Positions 1 to 32,500 of a stretch of DNA of 64,000 nt are shown here, in pieces. The DNA lies in contig NC_036448.1 in assembly GCF_002775205.1 (NCBI RefSeq), forward strand, positions 2,339,498 through 2,403,497, read 5' to 3'. A program made the translations under genes and the position numbers. The stretch's first letter is position 1, and each line of letters starts with the position of its first letter. The notes below the pieces were generated by a model. The model was not told the DNA's origin and ran no database searches. It was given only the letters and a program-made list of their open reading frames with translations. Source of the DNA: Xiphophorus maculatus. Its lineage: Eukaryota; Chordata; Actinopteri; Cyprinodontiformes; Poeciliidae.

Positions 1-594
1 GTTGCAATGCCATTCTGGCATACCTCGGTCCGGGTGAATCCAGTTGCATCTGACGGTCCGTCGTTCTTTGTTTTGCAGAACCCGTATCCAGCAGAGCACT
101 CCAGTCTCGAGGAAGTCATAGTTGTAGATCTCCCAGGTGCGATTCAGAAGGTCGTCCAGAGTGGAGTCGTTCAATCCGAAGGCTCGGCGCTCCACGTACT
201 TTTTCCCGTTGTCTTTGGCGAACAGCCCGGTTCGGTTCTGGACAGATGTGTCGTTATTCCATGGTACAAAAATAGCCGTGGTGCTTGTATTCCAACAATT
301 GAAGTTAGTGTACTTAGAATGTCCGTAGGTGACTCTTGTATGCGTAAGATACCACGGTCCAACTCCGATGAAGTAGAAGATAGTAGCAAGAACAGCAGCA
401 GCAAACAGCAGGGCAAGAAGCGTTAGCAGCCCTTTCAGGCATAGGGTTTTTCTGGTTATCGTAGTCGTTTTCCGTAGCAAGGGTTCGTTAGAGGTTTCCG
501 AGTCGTCGTCGGTGTCAGTAGAGCTGTCTGAATCCGATGTGACATCCAGGCCATTCGGGTCTGTAGGCTTGCGCCTCATGCCGATAGCATCCAT
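1..594 (-). CDS. env: Env-like glycoprotein, N-terminal 198 codons, continues past window edge
   Basis: An open frame runs from an ATG at 594-592 to the window start with no stop. An in-frame second ATG at 579-577 overlaps the stop of Y. Residues 1-50 are hydrophilic and acidic (Ser/Asp/Thr runs). Residues about 51-76 form one strongly hydrophobic segment rich in Leu and Ala, and what follows carries several N-glycosylation sequons (NTS, NDT, NRT, NDS, NRT) and cysteines. This is a cytosolic tail, signal anchor and ectodomain, resembling the long leader of foamy-virus Env more than a short cleaved signal peptide. The name rests on position and topology. The fusion peptide, furin site and C-terminal anchor are outside the window. 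Confidence 0.75.
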   Translation of the reverse strand, partial: MDAIGMRRKPTDPNGLDVTSDSDSSTDTDDDSETSNEPLLRKTTTITRKTLCLKGLLTLLALLFAAAVLATIFYFIGVGPWYLTHTRVTYGHSKYTNFNCWNTSTTAIFVPWNNDTSVQNRTGLFAKDNGKKYVERRAFGLNDSTLDDLLNRTWEIYNYDFLETGVLCWIRVLQNKERRTVRCNWIHPDRGMPEWHCN

Positions 595-1679
595 CCTGGC
601 CAGATTAGTGCTTCCCTGGGATCCGCTGTATCAGGCGTAGTGCAGATTTTTCTCAGAGAGTTGAAGTGGCCCTGGTTGGCAGGGTTCTTTCCAACCCGTC
701 TGGTGGCCCTTCTCTGCTGCAGGGCTGTATATATGGGAGAGGGGTAGGGTAAATCAGGCTCCAACCCCCTCCACACCCACTTCCAGTGGAACACCCTCCA
801 GTAGTCCGGCCTAGGGAATGGGCCTGGGGCGGTTCCGTTTTTCAGCGCCTGGTCTTGCCAGGATTCGTGTTTGTACCCTATTGGGGCAGGTACTGAGATA
901 TAGGTGTACAATGATTGTCCATGCAGAGTTAGTCTAGTGCGGTACCCCCAGGTTGACGGAGTAAAAATCCTCTGGTGTGGTGGATTGGGGTAGACCCTGT
1001 CTATTTCCAATTTTAATGGAAGCCTGGTGTTATTAAATATATAACATTCAGGATTTATTTCCCTCCTTACTATGGTTTTCGCCATACTTGGTGAAGTGGT
1101 CCAAATCATCATGTCATTAAGTGAAATTTCACAATACAGTCCTTGCAGTGGTTCAAGATAATGGGGACCCCACCTAATCCGTAGTTCGATCCCCCATACC
1201 CTGAGATACACTGTATTAAAAATCCAGGGCAGAGATCTTGGGCACATAGGTGAGATTGATGCAACATTAACCGTGTTGTCGGATCCTCTTCCTTTCCAAG
1301 CGGGCGGTGCGGTAGGGATAAATAAATGTGGCTTCATGGCAGGGGGCGTCGTGTATTCTTCACTTTCCCCCACCTCTTTTACGTTTTGGAAATTGGTGGG
1401 TCGGAGATATATGAGAAACTTGAGAAAATAGGCCTCGGTGAGCGGATTGGAAACAGTGAAATCTTCTCTTGGCATATCTAGTAGAATGGAGGTGGTAGGG
1501 AGTTTTAAAAACGGGCCTCTGTCTGATAGTCCCGATGAGACTCCAACCCCCACTTTGAACAATCTAGTCACAAAACACTGTCTCCCCTTTCGCTTTTTGG
1601 TTTTTTGCTGACCTTCAGACTTGACGACTCGTTTTCCTCCTTCCGGTGCGTCCATCAGTCTTGGCTTGTCTTTCTCCAT
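576..1679 (-). CDS. Retroviral accessory protein Y, unknown function
   Basis: I do not recognise this 367-residue protein. The N-terminus is basic (KKRKGRQ near 28-35). The middle is rich in tryptophan, tyrosine and proline with alternating hydrophobic stretches, suggesting a beta-rich globular fold. A tryptophan cluster (HWKWVW) lies near residue 300, followed by an arginine-rich tail. There is no signal peptide or obvious membrane segment. The start overlaps the end of X by 25 nt in another frame. Its stop TGA (578-576) overlaps an env-frame ATG (579-577) as ATGA. The uninterrupted length and tight packing argue for a selected gene. Alternatively X and Y could be two parts of one structural or regulatory function. 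Confidence 0.7.
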   Translation of the reverse strand: MEKDKPRLMDAPEGGKRVVKSEGQQKTKKRKGRQCFVTRLFKVGVGVSSGLSDRGPFLKLPTTSILLDMPREDFTVSNPLTEAYFLKFLIYLRPTNFQNVKEVGESEEYTTPPAMKPHLFIPTAPPAWKGRGSDNTVNVASISPMCPRSLPWIFNTVYLRVWGIELRIRWGPHYLEPLQGLYCEISLNDMMIWTTSPSMAKTIVRREINPECYIFNNTRLPLKLEIDRVYPNPPHQRIFTPSTWGYRTRLTLHGQSLYTYISVPAPIGYKHESWQDQALKNGTAPGPFPRPDYWRVFHWKWVWRGLEPDLPYPSPIYTALQQRRATRRVGKNPANQGHFNSLRKICTTPDTADPREALIWPGWMLSA

Positions 1680-3022
1680 GGAAATGCTGAGGCAAGCTTC
1701 TGCCAGGCGTGAGTTTTGGGTTTCTTCTTGGGAGGCTCCGGCTCCGTACTGGACACGGTGGCGTGAGTCTGCTCGTCTGGTACCACTTTGATGGCTGCTC
1801 CGACTGAGTAGATCCCTTTATAGGGAACGGTGATCATGCGCACTGACAGCTGGACCCGACAGGAGGTGCTAGGATCAGAGGGCGTACTCGCCCTGTGAGC
1901 CACTCCTCCTGGGTGTTGCAAAACTCCATCCCGAAACTGGGATTCCGCTGTCACCCAGTACAGGCAAGACTTCTCCTTTGGTCTCACCGCATTGCTGCCC
2001 CATCCTTCCACCTCTGTGGTGTAGTAATACATATCCGAGCTGCGCACCCCATCTTCTCTTGGTACATCCGGCAGATCCACTATGGGTATCGTGCAGTCAT
2101 TGATGACCTCCAAAATTAGATGTGCCCAGGTGGTTAGTTCCCAGGGGCCTGTCCACCCACCATTAACGGCTTGCTCTCGGGCGTCATCTGGGAGTGCACT
2201 TAGCTCCTCAGCTGATGGTTGGTATGCGTGAGGCCGATGTACCCGGAAGACCACCGGAGAGTGGTTGGCATTCAATGGTGGACATGACAGGGATGCTCTA
2301 GCAGCGTCATATGGCCAGGCGGCTTGAACAGAATCCCACAGGACATCATGGGGCCCTTCTTCCCTCTTCCACACCCATGGGTCCAATTCCTCTGGAGTGT
2401 TCGGAGGGGCGGAAGGTCCTGGTAATATTATCGGTATGGAGCTCCCATAGTTCGGCTGCACTTGCCCATAGGTTCTGTAATATCGCAGCGAGCTGTAAAA
2501 TCTTGTCACTTGCCACCCTTCAGCTGCGCCTGTCAATGTTACCTCTCCACTCTTTAGCTGTTCCTCGCACACAGGGCAGTGGTGTAGCTCATCTCCGTCC
2601 CACGTGCAATAACAAGTTCTTGGTTTTTCCTGGAGCCACCCCCATTGGGTTTCCAACTTAAGTCGGGGCAGGTAACCCACTCGGCAGTTCCCACAGACTG
2701 TATTGTTCAATACCGTGACTGGGGAGACGCGAAGGTGTTGTAGCATCTCTGCGGTAGCCTCCTGGTGTCTTGGCTTCTCACGGCCCGGTCTTTCCCAGAT
2801 AATGGGAAGATGGTGGTCGGCTAAACAAACCGGGCAGCCGCTTTTAGCTTTCCTCCAAACCAGCATCTCTCTGTCTTCCGACAGGACTCCATTTTTGGCC
2901 CAATCCAATTTCTTCAGGGCTCGTCCTGCCCAAATCCCTGAAGGTGTTCTTCTAATTACAACCACCCCTTTCACGGTGGCCAGTCCGAGATAGGGTGGAA
3001 TGGTACATGATTCACTGGCCAT
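1655..3022 (-). CDS. Retroviral accessory protein X, cysteine-rich with basic C-terminus
   Basis: I do not recognise this 455-residue protein. It starts 21 nt after the pol stop and its end overlaps the next ORF by 25 nt. The N-terminal third has paired cysteines: CPVC (63-66) followed by H70-H71, CGNC (110-113), CYC (137-139), and HHCPVC (147-152). This spacing suggests zinc binding, possibly RING- or treble-clef-like. The C-terminus has PPKKKPKT (from residue 430), a nuclear-localisation-type basic cluster. A position between pol and env is that of lentiviral vif/vpr genes; spumavirus accessory genes follow env. Transactivation or counter-defence are possible roles but nothing shows either. 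It is probably expressed from a spliced message. Confidence 0.75.
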   Translation of the reverse strand: MASESCTIPPYLGLATVKGVVVIRRTPSGIWAGRALKKLDWAKNGVLSEDREMLVWRKAKSGCPVCLADHHLPIIWERPGREKPRHQEATAEMLQHLRVSPVTVLNNTVCGNCRVGYLPRLKLETQWGWLQEKPRTCYCTWDGDELHHCPVCEEQLKSGEVTLTGAAEGWQVTRFYSSLRYYRTYGQVQPNYGSSIPIILPGPSAPPNTPEELDPWVWKREEGPHDVLWDSVQAAWPYDAARASLSCPPLNANHSPVVFRVHRPHAYQPSAEELSALPDDAREQAVNGGWTGPWELTTWAHLILEVINDCTIPIVDLPDVPREDGVRSSDMYYYTTEVEGWGSNAVRPKEKSCLYWVTAESQFRDGVLQHPGGVAHRASTPSDPSTSCRVQLSVRMITVPYKGIYSVGAAIKVVPDEQTHATVSSTEPEPPKKKPKTHAWQKLASAFPWRKTSQD

Positions 3023-3043: not shown

Positions 3044-6000
3044 TTAGTCAGGAACCGGCTTGAGCTGCTCGACTCCTTGGATCCCTTTTCTTTCCAGCAA
3101 TACTGTGTTCCTATCCAGTACTCTCTTGACGATGTCAGTTGTCTCAAACTTGGGTTTTACTGCTGCATGTACAGGTTGTTCTCTTGCTTTGACCCACACG
3201 CGCTGTCCCTCTCGGAATGGCACTCTGGGCGTCAGCTTCTCCTTTTTGTCGCTGGAGCCCCGCCCCACTTCCTTCGTGGTGAACGGCCGTTGGTTGAGTT
3301 CCATCGCAGGGGCGGGTCTTTCGGCTCTGCTTCTGTCGTTCAGGGCCTGCCCTATTTCCACCGCTTGGGTGCTCCAACTGTTGGTGTTAGCATTTTTAGC
3401 TATCCAGCTCTTCACTAACCCTATGGCTCGTTCCACCACTCCGTTAGCTTGTGGGGTGTAGGGTGGCGAGTAAACTCGCATTACTCCATACTTCTGACAC
3501 CACTGGTCAACCTGTGAATTACGGAAATGAGTCCCATTGTCCGTGCGCAGCTCTTTCGGGATTCCCAGGGCACTGCATACTTGTTCCAGCATGCCGACAA
3601 CGCTATTGCCGTTTGCTTTCCTGGCTGCTTTTGTAGTTACAAACCCCGACATAGAATCCACCAGCACTAAGAGGTACTTCTCACCTCTCCTTCCTGTTAT
3701 CCCCATGGGTCCTGCAACATCCATGCAGACTGAGCCCCAGGGGACCGTGCTTTTGATGGACAACCCATCCATCCGCTGCCCTCGGCGACCTGCGTTGTAT
3801 TGACCACACACTTCACAGTCCCTTAGCACGCGTTGGACTTGTTTCACTGGGATCCAAAGGTCTTGCTCCTCCAGTTCCTTACGGGTAGGTCGCACGCCTG
3901 CATGTCCAAGGGCCTCATGCACGCTCCGCACGACCTCGACCACGTATTCTTCTGGGACCTCCCGTCCTTTGGGAGTTCTGTCCCACTTCTCGGTACCGAC
4001 AAAGACGATCTTCCTTTGTTGGACATAACAGTCCACTTCATCATTCCCACGCCAATGAGCTCCCTCATGCGTGTGTGCTCTTTGGTGCTGCACTTCTATT
4101 TCCAACTGCAGCTTCAGCTCAGCAATCTTTTTCCACAAATCTTTGTGTGCCACTGGCTTGCCCTTTGCTGTCTCGAAACCATTTTCTTCCCAAATGGCCA
4201 AGTCCTCTCTGAGAGCCTGAGCGCAGTAGTAACTGTCGGTTACTAACCTGGCACTTTTGATTTTCCTTTTCACCAGCTCCAGCAATCCTTCCAGTACTGC
4301 CGTCACTTCTCCGGCTTGAGCACTACCCGGGGCCTTTCCTTTCTGGCGGCATTTCTCTTTGCCGTCCTGCTTCAGAATAAATCCCCAGTATGCCGACTGG
4401 TCGGACCCCTTTCTGGATCCATCGGTGTAGATTGTCCATTCCGGTTGTCCTGGCTTCTCAAGTGTTTCTTGTGGTTTTTTCTTACTGGTAGGTTGTGCTG
4501 GCCCAATTTCAAGCTCCGGGTCCAGCAAGATGTCCTCCCATCTTCCCCACCGAGTATTGGTTGCTTTAGTACTTTCCACAGTCCCTTTTCTTAGGTACTT
4601 GTGAACTTGGCTTTGTGTGATGACTTTAACTGGTTGTCCTTGTGCTAAATCTTTCAGCACACCCCAATAGCGGGCTAACACCGCTAGCTCTTTCTCTTCC
4701 TGCGGGTATTTCTTTTCAACAGAAGTTAGGGTGTAACTCCACAGGGTAACTAAGCCTCCATTTTCGTTACTCACTTTGATCATGGCATCGTCATTCTCGC
4801 AGCTGATCTCTGCCACCAGTCTTTCTGACAAACTCCTTGGCTCCAATCTCACAGCTGCTTGAATGGCCCTTCTCAGTTCCTCTAGGTTCTGTTGATTGGC
4901 TGCTGTCCAAACCCAGGGTCTTTTTCCGTCTTTCTCGTCGTCCTCACTTTTCCTCAGGCAGTGGTACAAAGGTTTGGCATATTTCTGATAGTTGGGTACA
5001 TGGTCTCTGACATAGTTGCACAGTCCCAATATTTTCTGCAAGTCATTTTCTGACTGTGGTGGTTGAATGTTCGTCAGCTTTTCTCTGTACCCATCCGAGA
5101 GTCCCAAGTCCGACGTAACTTGGAAACCCAGATAGTTCACTTGGAACTGTCCAAATTGACATTTCTTGAGGTTTAGCTTCAAACCTGCCTTAGTGAGATT
5201 TTCAACCACTTTTTGTAGCCTCTCTAGGTGTTCTTCTTCTGTGTCATCAGCAATAAAAACATCATCAATGTACACAGTAGCACCTACGTCCCCCAGTACT
5301 TCCATCACTGCTGACTGGAACACGTTTGGGGAGTTCTTGTACCCCTGGGGTAACCTTTGCCACACATAGCTCTTGCCTTTGTGGGTGAATGCAGTTTTAC
5401 CTTGCGACTGTCTGGCGAGGCGTAGAGAGAAAAATCCATTGGCTAGGTCGATGCATGACTTGAACTTCTTGACTCGAAGAGTTTTCAACGCTCCTTGTGG
5501 ATTAATTAAACTGGCTCGGTTTGCTATTGTTCTCCGATTCAGGGCTTTGAAGTTGATAACTGGCCTCCAACCCCCTCCAGCCGATTCAGGTTTCTTCACC
5601 GCCTGGATGGGGCTGTTGGTGATCGGGTTGAGCTCCTCTCTGATGATCTCTAGGGCGCCCAGTTCCTTCACGATCTTGTCCATCTCCTCGACTGCTCCTG
5701 GGTTCAACGGGTACTGCCGAACAGGTGGATGAACCCCACCTTCGATGTGATGAACAAACTTTGGGCCCAAATCTCCACAATCGTTCTTGAACCGTGCTAC
5801 CTGTGCTGTAGCGATGATTTTACGTAGCTTCTCTTTCCCAGCCGGGGAGAAGTCACTCTCTTCAAGTTTCTGTTCTGTCACCGTTGGTATGTCGACCGGT
5901 TTGTACCAGTCTTGCTTTTCTGACCCTGCTTGAGTCGGGCCAACTTTCACCAATCTTGCTTTCAAACTTGTCAGCCTTCGCTCCAGTCGGCGATGTGTGC

Positions 6001-6274
6001 CTTTCTTTTTACTGAGTTCGTCTAAGTCTTTTACTGTGAGGAGATTGTAGGGACCTTTCACCCACACTACTCCTTTCCAGGTTCCATATGGCATTTCTTC
6101 TATTTTCCCATTAGCAAACTGAACCTTCAGGTGTCCTGCTGTTTTTAGGTCTTTGCGGGTCATCGACACCTCCGCTCCGGTGTCCACTAGGTAGGGCACT
6201 CCTTCCACTTTAGCGTAGATTTCGTCCCCCTCCCAGTAGGCATTTTCTAAAATGACCCGCGACCTGGACGCCAT
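3044..6274 (-). CDS. pol: Retroviral Pol: protease, reverse transcriptase, RNase H, integrase
   Basis: The protein has 1076 residues. Aspartic protease has DTG at 31-33. Reverse transcriptase has catalytic D276 in IDLANGFF, LPQG at 308-311 and YIDD at 335-338. A degenerate RNase H-like connection (about 455-600, with the TRWGRWEDILLDPE block) precedes the active RNase H, which has D618 (TDGS), E656 and D680. This dual arrangement is typical of true retroviruses. Integrase has the HHCC zinc site H786, H791, C820, C823 and the D852, D912, E948 triad with 35 residues between the last two. No dUTPase is seen. The protease starts right at the N-terminus, so there is no separate pro frame. The ATG shares its first base with the last base of the gag stop; pol is in the -1 frame relative to gag. 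Every catalytic residue I looked for is present. Confidence 0.97.
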   Translation of the reverse strand: MASRSRVILENAYWEGDEIYAKVEGVPYLVDTGAEVSMTRKDLKTAGHLKVQFANGKIEEMPYGTWKGVVWVKGPYNLLTVKDLDELSKKKGTHRRLERRLTSLKARLVKVGPTQAGSEKQDWYKPVDIPTVTEQKLEESDFSPAGKEKLRKIIATAQVARFKNDCGDLGPKFVHHIEGGVHPPVRQYPLNPGAVEEMDKIVKELGALEIIREELNPITNSPIQAVKKPESAGGGWRPVINFKALNRRTIANRASLINPQGALKTLRVKKFKSCIDLANGFFSLRLARQSQGKTAFTHKGKSYVWQRLPQGYKNSPNVFQSAVMEVLGDVGATVYIDDVFIADDTEEEHLERLQKVVENLTKAGLKLNLKKCQFGQFQVNYLGFQVTSDLGLSDGYREKLTNIQPPQSENDLQKILGLCNYVRDHVPNYQKYAKPLYHCLRKSEDDEKDGKRPWVWTAANQQNLEELRRAIQAAVRLEPRSLSERLVAEISCENDDAMIKVSNENGGLVTLWSYTLTSVEKKYPQEEKELAVLARYWGVLKDLAQGQPVKVITQSQVHKYLRKGTVESTKATNTRWGRWEDILLDPELEIGPAQPTSKKKPQETLEKPGQPEWTIYTDGSRKGSDQSAYWGFILKQDGKEKCRQKGKAPGSAQAGEVTAVLEGLLELVKRKIKSARLVTDSYYCAQALREDLAIWEENGFETAKGKPVAHKDLWKKIAELKLQLEIEVQHQRAHTHEGAHWRGNDEVDCYVQQRKIVFVGTEKWDRTPKGREVPEEYVVEVVRSVHEALGHAGVRPTRKELEEQDLWIPVKQVQRVLRDCEVCGQYNAGRRGQRMDGLSIKSTVPWGSVCMDVAGPMGITGRRGEKYLLVLVDSMSGFVTTKAARKANGNSVVGMLEQVCSALGIPKELRTDNGTHFRNSQVDQWCQKYGVMRVYSPPYTPQANGVVERAIGLVKSWIAKNANTNSWSTQAVEIGQALNDRSRAERPAPAMELNQRPFTTKEVGRGSSDKKEKLTPRVPFREGQRVWVKAREQPVHAAVKPKFETTDIVKRVLDRNTVLLERKGIQGVEQLKPVPD

Positions 6275-9200
6275 TACTTTGGTGACCCTCCGGCCCCGGC
6301 TTTACGGGACTCACGGAGGGCCGTCCTCTCTTCTGGGCTCAATTTCCTATACTCCTCATCTGTCAGGAACTGACCTTTTCCTGGCTGGTTTGATGAAGCC
6401 GGAGGGTTGGTCGGTTTCCCTTGTGGTCCTGGTGGTTTCTGCTGGAACGGCCGGTTCCGGAAGTTGGATGGCGGTGCTCCTTGTTGAAACGGTCTGCTCT
6501 GGAAGTTGGATGGCGGTGCTCCTTGCTGGAACGGTCTACCCTGGAAGTTGGATGGTTGTCTGATGTTAACCCTTCCAGGTGGCTTTGCCGGTTGGCTAGC
6601 CTCCTTCTTCCTTTTGTCCTCGTAGTACTGTTGTTCCAGGTCGAATCCTTGCACTGCTACATCCATCTGAGCGACTGTTGTGCTTCTCACTGGCAACTTC
6701 ACGAACACGATCTCTCCTCTGCGTCCTTTTGTCACCTCACGCAGTACTTTCACATATCTCGCAGGGGAAACGGTCTGCTTAAGTGTGTGCCAAAGCGGTT
6801 CCAACCGGCTTCCCTTGTCCAGCCGTCCTCTGGCTCTCTTCACCTGGGACTCTTCATCATCCATGTCCTCCAACACCAGCCTTTCATAGTTGCTCTGTGC
6901 TGAATCTGTTCCAACCATCGGGTCCGAGGTCACGCTGGTCAGCCACAACTTTTTGGCTCCCTCGTGGTTGGTGGTAGACAACACGGTTGGCCAAACATCT
7001 TTCAGATACTCCTCATTGTTTTCGTCTGCGTTTTTACTCCTAATTACCAGCCTTAGATTCTTCAACTCGGCGTAAGCATCCTGTCCCGTATTAGCGGCAG
7101 GTAGCTGAGCCAACGCCCCTAGTGGCCTCACCGGGATCTGTGGTCCTGGCTCCGAAGACGTCGCCTGGGGTTCCTCCTCATCAGCCGACACTTCGTCCAG
7201 CTTCTGTCGAGCCTCCCTGGAGTATTTGAAGGCAGCTTTCTTCAGTCGTCGCAGCATCACATCATACATAATTCCAATGTAGGCATTCCTGAAGTTGGTA
7301 GTCAGGGAATAGTGTGCTGTCAGAGTGGAGCAGGATGGTGTCATCAGGATGTTAGCCCATTCTCCGATTGTTGCTTCCACCTCGAGCTGCACCCGGTCTC
7401 CCAATCTGCTGGCCCATCCTGCCGGGATCTGGTACTCGGTTTGGCCGACTTCTGGTACATACGTACGCCGTCCGTCCTTAGCCTGCACGGGACCCCAGGT
7501 CACGTCTCTTGCCAGTCTCTCAGAAGATCCTTCGATGTCAAAGGTTTCTATTTCTTTCTTCTTACCCCGATGCTGTCCTGTTCGGAGTGTCTTATGCTCG
7601 GCCGGTAGTTGCCTTGGGTCGGAGAAGACGCTGCCGTGATCGCTCTCCTCTTCTTCTTCTCCAGGATGTTCGATCTCCGGTTGCTCCTCTTCGTCCTCCG
7701 AGTCGCTGATGTCTTCATGCTGCTGTTGTCGAAGAGGTTCTCTCCTGGGGGAGTTCAGCGGTCGAATCTTAGCTGGTTTCATCGGTCCTTCTTCTTTCGG
7801 GACCGTCGGCTGCTCATTCTTGACTTTTCCCGCATTGGGTTTTTTCAGTTCACTGCGGCTCTCTTCAAACGAGAACTCCTTAACGTACCTTGCTGCAGAG
7901 AACCCTGGTTCAACAGGTGCCTCCTTTATCTTTATCCTGGGTGGCTGCACGGCCTTGGCTTTTCCTATCTGGGTGGTGTTTAAAACCTCACTTTGGGGAA
8001 TTTTTAAGGGATATTTCTTGATTTCTTGCGATGGATGGCTAATGCGGCATTGCTCCTCCATCTCAGCTGCCAATTTCACCCCTTGCTCAGTGCGGAGTCG
8101 ATGCAGACGGGGGTCAACCACCACCACCACTTCTTTGAACACAAAGAAATGACTGTTGGTCTTGGCTATATTCACCACTCCGTTCTCCGCTATTGATCTG
8201 GCGGTGTCCCTTGGCAGATCCGGCGATCTCAGTCCCTGTACACTCACTATGACTCTTCTCATGCATTCGTTGCTGGCCGCCGCTAAGCCCCGCTCGAGTC
8301 CATGCCACATCTTCTTCCGATATTCCTCCAAACTCTCTCCTTTTCGGTAGACGTCAATCGGGACTAGGATTACAGCACCATAAGGGAGACTATAGCCGTT
8401 CATCAAGACTACTTCTCCCCTTGTCTTTGGGCTACAGGTGGCTTCTAGCAATTTTGAATCCGCTTGGTAATATTGCCCTGCTTGGTCCTCAAGGCTGCGT
8501 CTGAACTTTCGATTGTGGATCTTGTATCTGTCATTGGTGAACACAATCAGTCCGTCACCCTCAAGATCCCATATTCTTCCAATAACCTGATAAATCCGGA
8601 GGCCGGTCTGCAGTCTAAAGTTGCTGGCCCCCGGTGGTATTTCGGCTAATTCTCGGGCCATCCTCCAGGTGTCCGATTTCTGAGTCTTCTTCTTAGGGCG
8701 ACCGGGGTCCCGCTGCTCCTCGTCCGATTCCTCCCTGTCCTCGTCGGAACTGCTGGCCGCTGGGGTCTCCGTAGGTGGTAGTGGATGCCTCCTCTCCGTG
8801 CTGTGGGCTCGGGGATGAAACCCGGGCTCCAGACCTCGTCGCAGGGACCAGTCCCTGGCCGCTTGCTCCAACTGCTCCTCAGTGAGGCCGCCGACGAGCG
8901 CTTCCTCGGGGTCTTCCTCATTGGCTGGTGCAGGTGGGATGTCCTCGTTCCGCGATGGACCTGGTGGAGCTGAGGGACCTCCATCGCTGTCGTCGCTGCT
9001 GTCACCGCCGGCGTTGTCGTCGCTGCCGCCCGTCAGGTCTATCAGATACCTCGGAGGTTGCTTCGTCTGGCGAGTCGGTGTCGTGGTTCTGCTGGGCAGT
9101 CGGGACGGAGGCTCAGCCACCTCCGACCCTGCCTCTTCGAGGGCTCGCTCCTTTTCCTTGCCCTCTTTGTAGGTTGAAAGTCTCTGCATGGCCTCAGCGT

Positions 9201-9729
9201 AGTCTTTGTACTGGTTCACCCCCTTGGCGTTTGGGTCCACCAGGATTCCATCGATGCCCGCCGCCAAGGTAGCTGTTTTTACTACGCGGTCATACTTTTC
9301 GGAGGGGCTGTGGACAATTCGTAGCTCACCATCCGCCCATCCTTCAAGGAGGTCAGCGAACCATTCCAGCCATCCTCTAACCTCCGGCTTCTTAGCCACT
9401 TTCACTGGGCATCTGACGACCCCCAGTCGGTGGCCGTGTCTAAGCTGGGTGCAGTAGTATATCCGTTTTTGCACTATGATTTCCATTGGGCTCCGAGCCA
9501 CGTCCTTGCTCATGGTGAAGTGAGAATCAAAGAACATCTTTTTATTTATCTCAGTCCAGGATTCCAATCCATCACCAAGTAATATCAACATTACAGGAAA
9601 TTGCGATAATGTAGATTTGGAAAGATGGGATTGATGATTCTTCCCATCCCGGCTGATGTTGCTTGCCTCTTGTTCCATTGCTGGCTTTTGTAGGGGCTCC
9701 AGTTCCCCTCTTTCTTCTTCTTCACTCAT
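6274..9729 (-). CDS. gag: Retroviral Gag polyprotein with macro-like domain
   Basis: The protein has 1151 residues, about twice a usual Gag. Residues 1-190 are a folded-looking N-terminal region (matrix position). Residues 200-350 are acidic and disordered, with PPRY (225-228), IDLT (230-233) and PSAP (252-255): two late-budding motif types and a SUMO-interaction-like motif. Residues about 370-545 follow the strand order of a macro domain: GDGLIVFTND, then AGQYYQADSKL, then RGEVVLMNGYSLPYGAVILV, and a final VVVVVDP strand. A second acidic linker precedes a helical region (about 790-1040) in the capsid position. Residues 1059-1097 are three tandem PSNFxxRPFQQ repeats. No CCHC zinc knuckle is present. 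The TAA stop overlaps the pol ATG (TAATG). The ATG at 9729 is chosen as the first after the leader. Gag identity rests on position; the macro domain is an inference from pattern. Confidence 0.85.
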   Translation of the reverse strand: MSEEEERGELEPLQKPAMEQEASNISRDGKNHQSHLSKSTLSQFPVMLILLGDGLESWTEINKKMFFDSHFTMSKDVARSPMEIIVQKRIYYCTQLRHGHRLGVVRCPVKVAKKPEVRGWLEWFADLLEGWADGELRIVHSPSEKYDRVVKTATLAAGIDGILVDPNAKGVNQYKDYAEAMQRLSTYKEGKEKERALEEAGSEVAEPPSRLPSRTTTPTRQTKQPPRYLIDLTGGSDDNAGGDSSDDSDGGPSAPPGPSRNEDIPPAPANEEDPEEALVGGLTEEQLEQAARDWSLRRGLEPGFHPRAHSTERRHPLPPTETPAASSSDEDREESDEEQRDPGRPKKKTQKSDTWRMARELAEIPPGASNFRLQTGLRIYQVIGRIWDLEGDGLIVFTNDRYKIHNRKFRRSLEDQAGQYYQADSKLLEATCSPKTRGEVVLMNGYSLPYGAVILVPIDVYRKGESLEEYRKKMWHGLERGLAAASNECMRRVIVSVQGLRSPDLPRDTARSIAENGVVNIAKTNSHFFVFKEVVVVVDPRLHRLRTEQGVKLAAEMEEQCRISHPSQEIKKYPLKIPQSEVLNTTQIGKAKAVQPPRIKIKEAPVEPGFSAARYVKEFSFEESRSELKKPNAGKVKNEQPTVPKEEGPMKPAKIRPLNSPRREPLRQQQHEDISDSEDEEEQPEIEHPGEEEEESDHGSVFSDPRQLPAEHKTLRTGQHRGKKKEIETFDIEGSSERLARDVTWGPVQAKDGRRTYVPEVGQTEYQIPAGWASRLGDRVQLEVEATIGEWANILMTPSCSTLTAHYSLTTNFRNAYIGIMYDVMLRRLKKAAFKYSREARQKLDEVSADEEEPQATSSEPGPQIPVRPLGALAQLPAANTGQDAYAELKNLRLVIRSKNADENNEEYLKDVWPTVLSTTNHEGAKKLWLTSVTSDPMVGTDSAQSNYERLVLEDMDDEESQVKRARGRLDKGSRLEPLWHTLKQTVSPARYVKVLREVTKGRRGEIVFVKLPVRSTTVAQMDVAVQGFDLEQQYYEDKRKKEASQPAKPPGRVNIRQPSNFQGRPFQQGAPPSNFQSRPFQQGAPPSNFRNRPFQQKPPGPQGKPTNPPASSNQPGKGQFLTDEEYRKLSPEERTALRESRKAGAGGSPK

Positions 9730-10048: not shown

Positions 10049-11644
10049 TGAAGGTTATCCTGCAATAGTCAGCCCCGCCCACTCCTCACTACTACCCAGG
10101 GCTGCCTACTGACCAGTTCTCTGTCTAACAGGTCCGGAAAATCTCTGAGACCTGGGTATTACCCTAAAAGTACTCTATAAGAGATAATCTATTTAAACTG
10201 GTGGCGAAAGTGATTCGTCTAGCTCTAACTACCTCCAATCCAGAAGTTATGACCCTTTACAGTTAAGAAACAATCAGCTGAGTAGCCCTCACAGCTGCAT
10301 AATTCCAATAACCACTTCTGTTAACGGTAGCCCACTTTCTAAATCATAACTTGCACTTGGAACCGGCTAGATTATGTTTAGTGACTTAGATGTAAGTCCC
10401 AGGGTCATTATTTACTCTCACCAAAGGAAATTATGAAGCCTCCTATTTACTGGAATCATGTACATTAGTTTTACCTTAATTAAAAGAACTGAACGAAGAT
10501 TAAATGACTCTATTAATTCCAATGTCCACCAACCTCTTTAGAATTTTATAGTATAATTTTATTAAGCAAGCTTAAGCAGGGATATGCGACATACAAATCA
10601 ATAATCAATCGTAAATAATTCAAGAACAGTGTAATAAAATTTACATGTACAATCATACTACCCTGTCCTCTTTTCCCTGACTAAAGTCGCAAGTTCTGAA
10701 ATGGAATTTCAATGAGCAGATTCAACTCATACCCAGACGATGGTGGATCTTTGGCAACAGGAATTTCTAGCATCCTTGGTTGAGGTCTTTGCCTTGTGTG
10801 GAAAAAACCCTCTTTAGAAAAGAAACAAAGCAGAACGGGTCCGAATCCTTTTGCAAAACCCAGTTCCTCATCCCTGAGGGAGCTTTGTCCTTCCTCCAAG
10901 TCTGGTTGCAGAGTTTGTAATTGCTGGGCTGAGACGAGACCGACGATCGAATGAAGAACCAGGGATGGGGCGATGGAACCCAGTCCTTTCTTGGCGGTGT
11001 GAAGTCCGAGCTCTCCCGTGGTTCTGAAGTGCGGTCCGTGGCTCAATCTGCTTCAGCAAGTTGTCTCTCCTTCTGCGCCGTCGGACTGGGAACGGCTGGT
11101 TCCTCTTTTCAGCCCCTTTTTATGCATCTCTCCTCCATGTGTGTGTATGGGGAAATTTGGTCTACGTGACTTGCTTCACATCTGCTATGTATCATGAAAA
11201 AGCCCCCACATTGCCCAACCTATTTCTGCTGACCATAGTGGAAAGTCCCGTACTTCCCCTTTCTCCGTTGCTTCAGCCAAACTCAACACTCCAACCCTCC
11301 TGTGCGCTCTGACCATCTGTTCAGAACTGCTTGCGACATTTCCTGTTTCAGGACTGTACTGTATTCCTCTCTTTTTCTATAACCCACTATTATTTATTAT
11401 AGCTCATTAAACACATTAAATCTGTTGTTAACCTGTTTGAATTAATTTCAAATGATTACAACTTCACATTATCACAAGTTTGATCCTTAGTTAACAATCA
11501 ATCACATCTCTTACTTATTATAATTCATCAACCATAATCTTTCCACAGTTAATTCATTACAGAAATCATTACAGATCACATTTCAGATAATACATTTCAG
11601 AAGGTTATTATGTGATTACTTGTATTCATTTTACTATTCCTTCA
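10049..11644 (-). repeat. Candidate 5' long terminal repeat of the provirus
   Basis: The U5 end is fixed by the adjacent primer-binding site: on the plus strand the LTR starts TGAAGG at 10049. The other end is less certain. I chose 11644 because CCTTCA at 11639-11644 gives a 6-bp terminal inverted repeat of TG...CA type and a length of about 1.6 kb, in the range of foamy-virus LTRs. A CTATAAAA TATA-like box lies near 10542-10549 and a CATAAAAAGG box near 11115-11125 (minus strand). An AATAAA lies near 10557-10562. A 121-codon minus-strand ORF (10681-11046) lies inside. The partner 3' LTR is outside the window, so neither the end nor LTR divergence can be checked here. Confidence 0.6.
10681..11046 (-). 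CDS. Possible 121-codon ORF inside the LTR
   Basis: A minus-strand frame of 121 codons lies within the candidate LTR, about 70 nt downstream of the CATAAAAAGG box. I see no domain. Retroviruses can carry coding sequence in the LTR (MMTV sag; foamy bet runs into U3), but at this length chance is quite possible. Conservation in other copies would decide. Confidence 0.2.
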   Translation of the reverse strand: MSHGPHFRTTGELGLHTAKKGLGSIAPSLVLHSIVGLVSAQQLQTLQPDLEEGQSSLRDEELGFAKGFGPVLLCFFSKEGFFHTRQRPQPRMLEIPVAKDPPSSGYELNLLIEIPFQNLRL

Positions 11645-12754
11645 TATTCAATTTAATTAGCTTTTAATCAAACTACAAGATTACTTATTTTCTCCCAGGC
11701 CTCTATGCACCTTTTCTGCATGCACCCGGAAAGATCTCACACCCTATGCCAGTTTTCTTGACACAAGGAAGTTTGATTTCCCAAGTAAAATTATGTGTAT
11801 TACTTTAAAACTAATGTGCATTTCAGAAGTAAATCAGTGTGGACAAGAAGTAGAAAAAATGCTCTTCTACAAATAAATTCAAAACACTTTAAAAGACAAA
11901 AATTATGAGGTTTTATATACCAGTGTAAACAATTAGAATGATGTTTGCAATTTATATTAAAATGTAATGTTCTATACACAGCAATAAAACATATTTTATA
12001 TTCATGGAGAAAGTCGGATTTTTGGTTTGGAACTATTTCAAATCATCTATTTAACTTTTCCTTCTGATTAGTCTATTGTATGATGTGTCCCTTCTCTGAC
12101 TTTTATTGTTATCTTTGTACTTGTTTGTCTTTTTAGGAAGAATTGAAATTTGTCACGCACTTTGACCTCAGACGCACACTATTGTTTGTGCTTTGATGTA
12201 TGTCTTTTTCTGAATCAGGGATCAGGGTTTCCAGTGCAATCAAATTTATCCAGCACCATAGCTCTGAGTTGGTTCTCTTGACTGCTTTGACAGGTTGCAG
12301 TTGCCTCAAATATAGTAATTTTATGGAGGTAATTTTACTGATGTGACGAGCTGCTTGACTTTAGCAGGAATGAAACCAGTCTGCCTTAATAATGTGCTTG
12401 AGACGCCGTCAAACTTTCCTGAAAGAATTAAGAAATAAACCACTTACCCCTGCCATCTAGTGGCCACAGCTGTATATTGCAATAACACGGACTTTTCTAC
12501 AACATCATGGAAATAATGTGGGGAAATGTTTCATGGTAGTTTACTTTCACATTTTAGATGCATGTGACATGTATGGGTATGTAGGGCATCTTTAATATGT
12601 ACATGTGCCTTTACATGACCAGTTCACAGGACGCTGTGCATGATTAAAGTGCATTAATAGTGTGAATATGATTATAATTACAGACATTCTATGCTGTCTT
12701 CAAAGGATCAGATGTTGAAGAGGCTTATGGTCAGCTATGACTATAATGTTCAGA

Positions 12755-26580: not shown

Positions 26581-29500
26581 GGGGGGGGTTGTTGTTAGGT
26601 TGCATGCCCCCACAGAAAGAAGTTGTGATGGGTAAAGAGGCACACTGGTCACAGGGGGGCAGAGCCTGGCTAGCTCAGTCAGTAGAGCATGAGACTCTTA
26701 ATCTCAGGGTGGTGGGTTAGAGCCCCACTTTGGGTGCTTGCTTTTGTAAACATTCTCTCTGACACTGATTAATTATTGATTAATATTAATTCAATTCCAA
26801 AGTATTTTATTGCTCCCAAAGGGAAATTAAATGTTGGTGTAGATCAGTGGTTCTCAAATGGGGGTACGTGTACCCCTGGGGGTACGTGGAGGTACTGCAG
26901 GGGGTACGTGAAGCTTTTCAAAATATCTTTAAAAAATCAGTAGGCTCCTCATAATAAGTCTTGGGAAAAATTATTTTGTGAAAAGTTCGATAAAATATAA
27001 ATGTGTGTTCATGTACTGAATTTTATATTCAGTATTTAGTTTCAATATCCTTTAAAATAAAACGGTTTGACTGGTTTTATACCTTTCTGGTGGTCACCGT
27101 CTTCTGTTTTCTTTTTTGTTTAACCATGCAATGTTTGCAATATGGATGTATTTGTCAGGTTCACTGATATAAGTTGTTTGGCTTTAATAAATCAGACAGT
27201 GATTTTACAGCACTGTACCCCTTTTTAATTAGTTTTGCCCGTGTCAGGGGGTACTTGACTAAAAATACATTTTTAAGGGGGTACATCACTGAAAAAAGTT
27301 TGAGAACCACTGCTCTAGAGCAACGCATGGAAGGAGCAGAGAGTAGAAACGGTAGAAAGGTACTCAACTTTTTCTACTACTTTTACACGACTTCACAGGC
27401 CCTCGCATACAGGTGCTGGTGCGAGGGCTTTCACAGGCCAGGGCCTTCACATGCCTTCGCATCCAGGTGGCGGTGCGAGGGCCTTCACAGGCCAGGTCCT
27501 TGAAGGATCCCTGGCCTTCACAGGCCCTCGCGCCCACGTGGCGGTGCAAGGGCCTTCACAGGCCAGGTCCATGAAGGATCCCTGGCCTTCACAGTCCCCT
27601 CGCGTCCACGTGGCGGTGCGAGGGCCTTCACAGGTCAGGTCATTCAAGGATCCCTGGCCTTCACAGGCCCTCGCGTCCACGTTCGGTGCGAGGGCCTTCA
27701 CAGGTCAGGTCATTCAAGGATCCCTGGCCTTCACAGGCCCTCGCGTCCACGTTCGGTGCGAGGGCCTTCACAGGCCAGGTCCATGAAGGATCCCTGGCCT
27801 TCACAGGCCCTCGCGTCCACGTTCGGTGCGAGGGCCTTCACAGGCCAGGTCCTTGAAGGATCCCAGGCCTTCACAGGCCCTCGCGTCCACGTTCGGTGCG
27901 AGGGCCTTCACAGGCCTTCACATTACCACGTGGTCGTCTTATTCAAGCACTTCTGAAGGAACAGCCTGCGATGTCATCGATGACATCACGTTCGTTTTGT
28001 CGGTCTGATGTCATCAGTGACAGTCAGGGACGGACGTGATGTCATCGATGACATCGCAGGCTGTTACCTCAGAAAAAATGTTTTTTATACCTCTGTTACA
28101 TGTCTCAGCTGTATTGAAACAGTTGTAACAATTGATGTTTGTTTTGTTTTGTCTCTTCTTCTCCTTTCTTCCGAGTGGGAAGCCTGTAAACAAGAACAGC
28201 TTTAGCGAACGAAGAACGACCGCCGTTTTCTTCCCCAAACTCTGTCTGTTTTATTACAAATTGTCAAAATCATGAAATCATGCAATCATACATTGAACAT
28301 TCCTTTGTGCATTCATGTCCATGTGTCCTTCCGTTGCTCCAAAACAACCATATTCCATCTACTTCAATAAACAACATCAGCCCCTACCAGCTGTGACAGC
28401 ATCCAAGGGCCAAATCAAAACAATTCAACAATCGATTTAAATCTTACAGATTTACATAAAAAGAAAACTATTCCTCAAGTTCAGTGAAATTGTAAGGCTA
28501 CTAATTTCTTTGAATTGTAATAACTCTGAAAAATGTAATCATATTATTAGTTCTATAATTTAATATGGGCATATTTAGAGGACTAGATCTAGCTTAAGCT
28601 AGTACAGTAGAATCAATTACTGGGTAGTAGGGGAAAAGTGGTAACGTCTATAATAAATGTTTGAAACTGATGAGAACTGATTTCCGGTACATGTAACAGA
28701 GTAACTTTAACACTTCCTATCAAAAGATAACACAACCCGTCAGGATACCACCGTAACCTTAATAAGGTTGGGTCGGAGAGTGTATCGAAGTTTAGATACA
28801 TGTAGCAAACTTCTATAACGGCTGTTTTACGACCGTTATAGCTACAAACCGTAATTATGAAACAAAATCACTCTTTTTCCCTCGAACGTCTAAACACGTC
28901 TAGCAAGTAATTACGAAATCAGCACCGAATGAACTTGTAAATTTACATTTTAGCGGGGACAGTTTCCACCAGCTTCACACTGCTAACCTGTAAACAAGAA
29001 CAGCTTTAGCGAACGAAGAACGACCGCCATCTTTTTCCCCAAACTCTGTCTGAGGCGCAAGGGGGAAAGGGGCGGGGCTCCTCACTCTAGGTCTCCTGGT
29101 GAAACGCTGTCTATAATTTGGCTCTAACAAAACTGGAAACATCAGTATGAGACCTGAAAGAGCGTAGGGACACCCTAGATCAGTGGTTCTCAAATGGGGG
29201 TACGTGGAGGTACTGCAGGGGGTACGTGAAGCTTTTCAAAATATCTTTAAAAAATCAGTAGGCTCCTCATAATAAGTCTTAGGAAAAATTATTTTGTGAA
29301 AAGGTCGATAAAATATAAATGTGTGTTCATGCACTGAATTTTATATTCAGTATTTAGTTTCAATATCCTTTAAAATAAAACGGTTTGACTGGTTTTATAC
29401 TTTCCTGGTGGTCATCGTCTTCTGTTTTTCTTTTTTGTTTAACCATGCAATGTTTGCAATATGGATGTATTTGTCAGGTTCACTGATATAAGTTGTTTGG

Positions 29501-32500
29501 CTTTAATAAATCAGACAGTGATTTTACAGCACTGTACCCCTTTTTAATTCCAAAAATGTTTTGCCCGTGTCAGGGGGTACTTGACTAAAAATATATTTTT
29601 AAGGGGGTACATCACTGAAAAAAGTTTGAGAACCACTGGTGTAGATAATGATGGCTGTTGGCAGGAAACAGCTCCTGTAGTGGTCTATATTAAAGCAAAT
29701 TTGAAAAAGCCTCTGACTAAAGACACTGTTTTTCTTAGACAGTCTCATGGTCAGGGTTGTTCATAATGTTTTTTTGTAAAATCCTGCTGAGCAGGATTTG
29801 CATCATCACGGCCAGAGGTTCCACAGTCTTTCCCAACAATCTCATTTCTAATGTGTGCCTGCAGGGTGTGAAGCGGTGCAGTCCCATAACGGGCTGTGAG
29901 GAGTTCTACTACCCCGCCTGGAAGAGAGCCATGTTCAGATGGCTGGTCAGCCTGCCGGTCTGCCTGCTCTGCCTCTGCTTCGTCTTTCTCGCCATGCTCC
30001 TCTGTCTTCAGCTGCAGGTCTCTGTAGGACAGCGCTGTCCACCATGCTAATCAAAACAGCTAATAATGACACAGCTCCACAGCCAAACATAAAGAATCCA
30101 ATATTGCAATAGTATTAAATTTTCAAACAGGTAAAATATACACATTTTATATATATAGTTCTAGTTTTATGACACACATAGCATCATCTAGCCCTTTGAG
30201 ATCTCAAGATGTAACAGCCACTATAAATAAAATGTATTATCTGTCACATTTACACATGCATTTCATCAAGAAATGTATGAATATTTTGTCTTTCCTTTGT
30301 TCTTTTTACATTTCCTCACCTCCTCGTTTTAATTTAAAACATTTCTGCCTCGTTATGCAAATGAGGAGGGCGGTGTCTTAAAACTTCAACTCCTGTCTAT
30401 TGGCTGGTCATGCATTTCTTGATGAAAATGCATGTGTAAGGAAAAGGAAAAACAAAATCTATTACTTTCTGCTTTTTATTTTTAATTATGTCAGTTTTGG
30501 TCCTCCATAGTTTTCATGTCATGACTGGTGAATAACAGCTATGAGACTGTTATTAGTTCTGATTCCATAATAATATTCTTCACTTTGCAGGAAGTGGTGA
30601 TGGAGATTCAGGAGCTGCCTAGTATCACAAGATTCATCCCTAAGATACTTCTGGCCATCACTGTAACTGTATGTGACGAGGTGTATAAGAAGATTGCCTA
30701 CTGGCTTAATGACATGGGTAAGAATCATTTTGTCAAATGACAGAAATCTGTTTGTGTGAATAATAGCCGAGTTCTTTAATAAGAAAGGGAAAGGATGGTG
30801 ACTGACTCTCCATTTCTCCAGCAGAAATAGAAGTAGGAAACAGAATCTCTCTAATTCTTCATGCTTGTTTGTTCTTCCAGAGAACTACAGATTTCAGAGT
30901 GCCTACGAGAACAATTTGATCATCAAGATGGTTTTTGTAAGTTATCCTGTTTTGTTTTGTGGTTTGTTTTTCAGGATAGTTTGGTTTTCTATTTCTTCTT
31001 ATGTCTTCTTGTTCTTCACAGTTTGAATTCATCAATTCTTACCTCAGTCTTTTCTACATTGGATTCTATCTCAAGGACATGGAGCGACTGAAGGAGGTAA
31101 GAACTTTGAAGAAAATTTGAAATTTGAAATCAGTCATACAAAAAAACAATTCAGTAGTTGCTATTTGTTTTGGAATATGAGTCAGTTTTGAGCTTTGGCA
31201 AAACTTTGCCAGCCCTGTAGACTCATTCAATTCAGTTCCGTTTATTTACATAGCGCCAGTTCACAACATATGTCCTCTCCAGGGACTTTACAAAATTGAA
31301 ATTGCAATTAAAAGCAGACTCTGCAACTTCCATCAGTGTCAAAACCCTCTGACTTCAACAGAACTGCTACTGAGCATGTCTTTCTTCTCAGCTTTTTCAA
31401 TGCTTTTGTTTTGAAAATCTGATGACAATTCTTGAATTTTGACATTAAAAATGTGTATGAACTCTGGTGGTAATATTAAATAACATATTAACAAAAACAG
31501 AATCTTATGACCCAGAGAGAATCCATGCATACACAGGGAGAACATACAGAAAGATCACAGGTTGGGATTTGTTGGGATTTTGCTGCAAGTTAATAGTGCT
31601 GCCAACTGTGCAGCCCTGACATTAAATTGATTCTTGAAAAACATAATATTGTCACATTCCTAAAATAATGGCCTGAGTATTGGTGTTTTTTTTTTCCAAA
31701 AGTAATTTTGGGGAGGGTGGGGGGAAGCAAAAAACAGCAACCAGCTCTTTATTGCCAAAAGATGAATTAGGCAAAAAAAAAAATACACTTTTGGCAAAAA
31801 ATATGACTGAAGTCATTATTTTAGGAAGGTGATGATATTCAGACTGACAGAAGCAAGGCTGCCTTGTAGTCAGAGCCATGGTGCCATCTGACCACCAAAC
31901 TCCTACCTTCAGAACCACCATAACACCAAGACTGATTCATATAATATTATTATATTTAAATAATAATAATAATAACTTATTTTGGATTATTTTGGCCAAC
32001 AGTACTTTGTAGCTTTACAGCTTTGTAAACAATCACCATTTGGATAATAGCGTCTTTCAAATGTATGAACACAAACATATGAACAGATATGAACATTCTT
32101 CTAAATATAATAAAAACATGAAGTTGATGGTAAAACCAGGTTGTAACGTCTCCACACTTTGAATCTTTTACTTTCAATTTGTAAATTGCATCCTACCTCT
32201 GACCAAGTGTAAGAACAAAACATGCGACTCTATCTATAGCAGCTGTATCAAGGAAACCACGCAGCTTCCTGTGTGTCTGACTGCACAACCACACAACATC
32301 TAGATATTTCTGCACTGATAGCACACAACACAAAAACAGAAAAGTCTAGTTAAAGTTTCTGCTGTTGGTAGTCATGCAAATAAACAGTACAAAGACAAAT
32401 GGTAAAATGGACTGAACTTATACCACTCAAAGCACTTTACACTTCAGACACACGCACCATGTCATTTTATGTCATTTCATTTTCATAATGATTAATTCCA

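Follow-up and report, generated by a model that had tools for sequence, protein, structure and literature searches.

Can a retroviral Gag protein carry a macro domain and, if so, could such a domain still read or remove ADP-ribose? The question is raised by a 64,000-nucleotide stretch of the Xiphophorus maculatus genome (NC_036448.1, positions 2,339,498 to 2,403,497; hereafter the window), which holds most of an endogenous foamy-like provirus whose gag open reading frame (ORF) is intact. The first-pass annotation had placed a macro-like domain with altered glycine loops at Gag residues 370-545, which map exactly to window positions 8622-8095 and contain the motifs that it quoted, and it had proposed a profile search, an AlphaFold and Foldseek comparison and a survey of fish genomes as checks. 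Here, residues ~366-566 of this Gag look like a macro-derived domain on sequence grounds (Table 1), and three lines of evidence favour the presence of a macro-like domain inside a retroviral Gag: profile search, profile-profile comparison and predicted fold, the last from a low-confidence model.

When the whole Gag was scanned against Pfam, Macro (PF01661) was the single family at E ≤ 1 (12 bits, E 0.21). The excised domain of the window reached 16.5 bits (E 0.0083), below the gathering cut-off of 22 bits. Each of the 11 homologous pieces scanned, i.e. the window copy and 10 others (six of 11 proteins from outside this genome and four of 20 copy stretches), had Macro as its best-scoring Pfam family, and one of them, P0008 of Ilyodon furcidens (a 165-amino acid goodeid fragment), exceeded the cut-off with 22.7 bits over profile positions 17-65 of 118. 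In the reverse direction, the Macro profile gave 33 matches over the 704-Mb host genome, one of which was a copy of this Gag (20.9 bits, profile positions 16-117 of 118). In profile-profile comparison by hhalign with a macro profile built from seven host macro exons and Escherichia coli YmdB, the domain scored 38.9 and 41.8, while the best column shuffles scored 21.0 and 22.9 (200 each). Other Gag windows that lay outside the domain or barely touched it scored at most 18.9, and two that overlapped it scored 32.5 and 24.4. By the better of two scores, five of six macro sequences occupied ranks 1-5 of 40, above all 34 E. coli controls; the host macro exons outscored YmdB, the sole other macro domain compared. 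In the profile search proposed as a check, Macro was the leading family and hhalign exceeded all 400 shuffles, but the window copy stayed under the Pfam threshold.

These methods cover different parts of the domain. The hhalign similarity spans Gag residues ~348-454, that is, the N-terminal ~100 residues, and its alignment is gap-free for 38 residues from P366 to K403, through the site of the macro NAAN motif. The Pfam match covers residues 412-495 in the window copy and extends to ~513 in copy L015, and residues 514-566 were assigned from predicted secondary structure alone. Searches of PDB sequences gave no match for the window piece, no hits for profile A4 and six hits, none of them a macro domain, for profile A6. 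In IMG/VR, the domain, YmdB and a reverse transcriptase (RT) piece yielded seven pattern matches each as queries, none of which was confirmed, and the phage records searched gave no match.

An AlphaFold model built from this Gag-domain family alone had low confidence (predicted local distance difference test, pLDDT, 42). When it was compared with the PDB by Foldseek, all of the top 50 rows were macro-domain chains, in agreement with the proposed structural check; for VIA the figure was 40 of 50. The model is consistent with the alpha/beta/alpha sandwich of macro domains. Against a viral structure library there were no hits at E ≤ 0.001; six of 50 rows were named macro domain or ADP-ribose hydrolase, and many rows were nameless. 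It is very improbable that the domain is a generic alpha/beta sandwich resembling macro domains by chance: the window copy lies under the Pfam cut-off, the models are of low confidence, the VIA rows include other alpha/beta folds and the C-terminal half gives no hhalign signal, but the shuffle and E. coli controls, the relative above the Pfam threshold, the gap-free alignment through the NAAN site and the uniform Foldseek result all speak against it.

The domain (176 amino acids) has at least 86 matches in the host genome. Near full-length matches (≥175 of 176 residues) number 81, of which 75 lie in stop-free open frames of at least 1000 amino acids, and 11 copies, one of them that of the window, encode the same protein sequence; these sub-counts were taken by eye from the genome match table. 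As for the survey of fish genomes, homologues of the domain were found in Gambusia, Poecilia and Xiphophorus, and also in Crenichthys, Ilyodon and Ataeniobius. Ilyodon is a goodeid of the order Cyprinodontiformes, and the other genera are poeciliids and goodeids. Because they share the upstream linker, the goodeid fragments are likely to be parts of Gag genes.

The ratio of nonsynonymous to synonymous substitution rates (dN/dS) of the domain was 0.18-0.28 in all eight pairs examined, which comprised eight of the 81 copies, each compared with the window copy and hence non-independent. Elsewhere in gag the ratio was 0.32-0.48 in the N-terminal region, 0.42-1.06 in the preceding linker, 0.18-0.37 in the following linker, 0.07-0.15 in the C-terminal part and 0-0.12 in the tail. 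The domain is under purifying selection, less strict than that on the C-terminal part of Gag. At loci L061-L068, dS itself varied sharply along gag within the same copies (in L063, 0.48 in the N-terminal region and 0.05 in the tail), which suggests recombinant lineages.

To what extent has the ligand pocket been retained? In ADP-ribose-binding macro domains the NAAN asparagine contacts the distal ribose, an aspartate contacts the adenine and the glycine loops hold the diphosphate. In our alignment, R385 corresponds to the adenine Asp, D392 to the Asp of VDAVV and N399 to the last Asn of NAAN. Beyond I404, where the alignment has a gap of one residue, H405 falls on the His of the host macro L031 and R407-K408 on its loop 1 glycine pair, so that HIGGL of L031 is aligned to HNRKF. 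Homologues were compared in a hand-chosen alignment of 21 rows, 18 sequences of which cover loop 1 and 13 loop 2. Position 399 is N in 16 and D in three of 19 sequences, whereas position 385 varies (E in six, G in five, R in three, D in three and S in one; n = 18), the three D being those of Crenichthys, Ilyodon and Ataeniobius. A glycine pair at 407-408 was found in none of 18 sequences, and one had a single G at 407. In loop 2, G499 is present and the S-G-x-F-G pattern is gone. In the window copy, the Asn expected of an ADP-ribose-binding macrodomain is present, but both glycine-loop patterns and the adenine Asp are not, and the alteration of the loops noted in the first-pass annotation is true of the relatives as well. 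In place of the loop 1 pattern, K403, I404, H405 and N406, together with F397 and T398, are invariant in all 19 sequences. Since altered loops and an invariant KIHN are found across the sampled homologues, the ligand loops apparently disappeared before their lineages split, with KIHN taking the place of loop 1. Canonical ADP-ribose binding and hydrolysis have probably been lost too, because the glycine loops that grip the diphosphate are replaced.

On balance, we lean towards the explanation that a macro domain was captured and then remodelled, so that it now gives Gag a binding module without hydrolytic activity. A cyprinodontiform foamy-like retrovirus would have acquired a macro domain and carried it midway along Gag in the same reading frame; replacement of the glycine loops would have abolished canonical ADP-ribose binding and hydrolysis; and the fold would have been retained as a basic binding module with invariant FT and KIHN at the old pocket. 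The domain has a predicted isoelectric point (pI) of 9.3, and the flanking linkers are acidic (pI 4.3 and 5.5). Similarity to the macro family beyond the controls, the many open copies and purifying selection are shown, whereas the binding role is inferred and is the least certain step; the partner might be RNA or protein, bound during assembly or during nuclear or chromatin steps. Loss of macrodomain activity has precedents in host macro-PARPs and some alphaviruses, according to the available text of PMC10221186. A bolder version, which we consider doubtful, is that a vertebrate foamy-like virus with recent activity built a host-type macro domain into Gag, and thus many copies into each particle, and that the remodelled pocket recognises an ADP-ribosylated host protein, poly(ADP-ribose) chains or viral RNA, shaping innate sensing or integration.

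Alternatively, the fold might be a purely structural spacer with no ligand or partner, serving just to make Gag larger or stiffer. Loss of the ligand loops and the position of the domain between two acidic, likely flexible linkers would suit such a role, as would the scatter of invariant columns (61 of 232) over the whole domain, KIHN being one among several motifs. However, the invariance of KIHN and FT in 19/19 sequences falls at the former ligand site, which is odd for a mere spacer, and we regard this alternative as unlikely. Less probable again, in our opinion, is a working reader or eraser of ADP-ribose that, like its counterparts in alphaviruses and coronaviruses, acts against PARP-based immunity, here with altered loops. 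The macro similarity, the ribose-side Asn kept in 16/19 sequences, the purifying selection on the domain and the higher scores of host macro exons than of YmdB are in line with it, but the loop 1 glycine pair has become R407-K408 here and is found in no other sequence examined, the loop 2 pattern is absent and the adenine Asp is an Arg in the window copy. The counter-defence or ADP-ribose-reader module put forward in the first-pass annotation, conceivable as it may be, is unsupported, because the residues expected to hold the diphosphate no longer show the required pattern.

Compared with known macro domains of PF01661 (macroH2A, MACROD2, PARP9/PARP14), the Gag domain is alike in the order of strands and helices, in the positions of VDAVVNAAN and GY-LP-YVI, in profile and in predicted fold; it differs in lacking the glycine-loop patterns and the adenine Asp and in sitting inside a retroviral Gag. 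The macrodomains of alphaviruses, coronaviruses and rubella virus are likewise virus-encoded macro folds within polyproteins. Those are located in non-structural proteins and mostly bind ADP-ribose. Hosts and viruses have a classic battleground in macro domains, although there the domains belong to non-structural proteins of RNA viruses. With a conserved macro-like domain in Gag, near-identical long terminal repeats (LTRs) and dozens of open copies, the present element offers a retroviral system for asking why viruses retain macro folds after loss of the ADP-ribose loops.

Among fish retroelements, a related case comes from a 2016 review (PMC4977317), the available text of which, citing Basta et al. 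(2009), reports that some epsilon-like fish endogenous retroviruses (ERVs) have additional ORFs for CNPase or macro domains. These also combine a fish retroelement with a macro domain, described there as an additional ORF. In the literature on macro domains together with Gag, foamy viruses or fish ERVs, none was described inside Gag among the matches listed. In the viral structure comparison, Foldseek also gave a weak match to the Gag of a Rhinella marina ERV (A0A2U9K508; rank 26, TMq 0.39, probability 0.63, E 0.078), based on the low-confidence model and on fold only, which hints that such a Gag domain may not be confined to fishes.

As to the element itself, the best PDB relatives of its Pol, at E 2e-83 to 1e-67, were five chains under the names Pr125Pol, peptidase A9 or protease/RT/RNase H, which we take to be foamy-virus Pol; the match that followed them had E 9e-36. 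Judged from its sequence, this is an endogenous provirus of the foamy-like kind, 17,032 bp long by the sum of coordinates. It is young, because its LTRs differ at one of 1716 bases. The order and sizes of its ORFs match the gag-pol-acc3-acc4-env arrangement, in a comparison of layout rather than of homology for the extra ORFs and env. According to the available text of PMC5512871, this arrangement is that of foamy-like ERVs of ray-finned fishes (AciFLERV and others), with acc3 and acc4 of 465 and 334 amino acids, against 455 and 367 here. The swordtail ERV-F.1-Xeve-chr-15 is described, in the accessible part of PMC12642411, as a foamy ERV of 17 kb that has three or more extra ORFs; the element of the window shares its size and has a foamy-like Pol. 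The phrase "macro domain" does not occur in either paper.

Table 1. Proviral features and putative macro-derived segments in the window
Feature	Position	Strand	Basis
Putative macro-derived domain, Gag residues ~366-566	8032..8634	-	Pfam, hhalign, AlphaFold/Foldseek; for the final 50 residues, secondary-structure prediction alone
FTNDRYKIHN, residues 397-406, at macro NAAN and start of glycine loop 1	8512..8541	-	hhalign alignment, homologue counts
RGEVVLMNGYSLPYGAVILVPI, residues 437-458, at macro GEA-T-GY-LPA-YVIH strands	8356..8421	-	Alignment; Pfam profile 17-100
QGLRSPDLP, residues 498-506, approximately macro loop 2 (S-S-G-x-F-G-F-P)	8212..8238	-	Register inferred from L015 Pfam match, profile 16-117
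gag ORF, 1151 amino acids, uninterrupted, basic PPG/GRPFQQ-rich tail	6274..9729	-	ORF; Pfam
pol ORF, 1076 amino acids, RT-RNase H-integrase	3044..6274	-	Pfam models, PDB matches
455-amino acid ORF, acc3 position of ray-finned-fish foamy-like ERVs	1655..3022	-	Gene order in available text of PMC5512871
367-amino acid ORF, acc4 position	576..1679	-	Gene order in available text of PMC5512871
env start, runs off window, hydrophobic stretch near N-terminus	1..594	-	Position; sequence
5' LTR, 1716 bp	10049..11764	-	One mismatch to 3' LTR at C6:2334230-2335945

No Pfam family was above cut-off in the other parts of Gag, in the two extra ORFs or in env. Gag residues 45-195 (window 9145-9597, minus strand) seemingly alternate between strands and helices, which suggests a further alpha/beta domain. 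A second macro domain at about these residues was rejected for now, as its hhalign scores of 14.5-16.6 lay within the shuffle range (maxima 24.8 for A4 and 21.0 for A7; 100 shuffles each).

Several other features were observed in the window. The pol ORF has its own ATG, which shares a single base (6274) with the end of the gag stop codon, as if Pol were made through re-initiation or had a message of its own. The N-terminal half of the 455-amino acid ORF is rich in Cys and His (CPVC, CGNC, CYC, HHCPVC) and looks zinc-binding, its Pfam hits being sub-threshold. Away from the provirus, positions 27401-27963 hold six overlapping repeat copies with a spacing of mostly 70 bp, and a duplication of ~450 bp in total, with a spacing of 2.3 kb, was found at positions 26877-29645.
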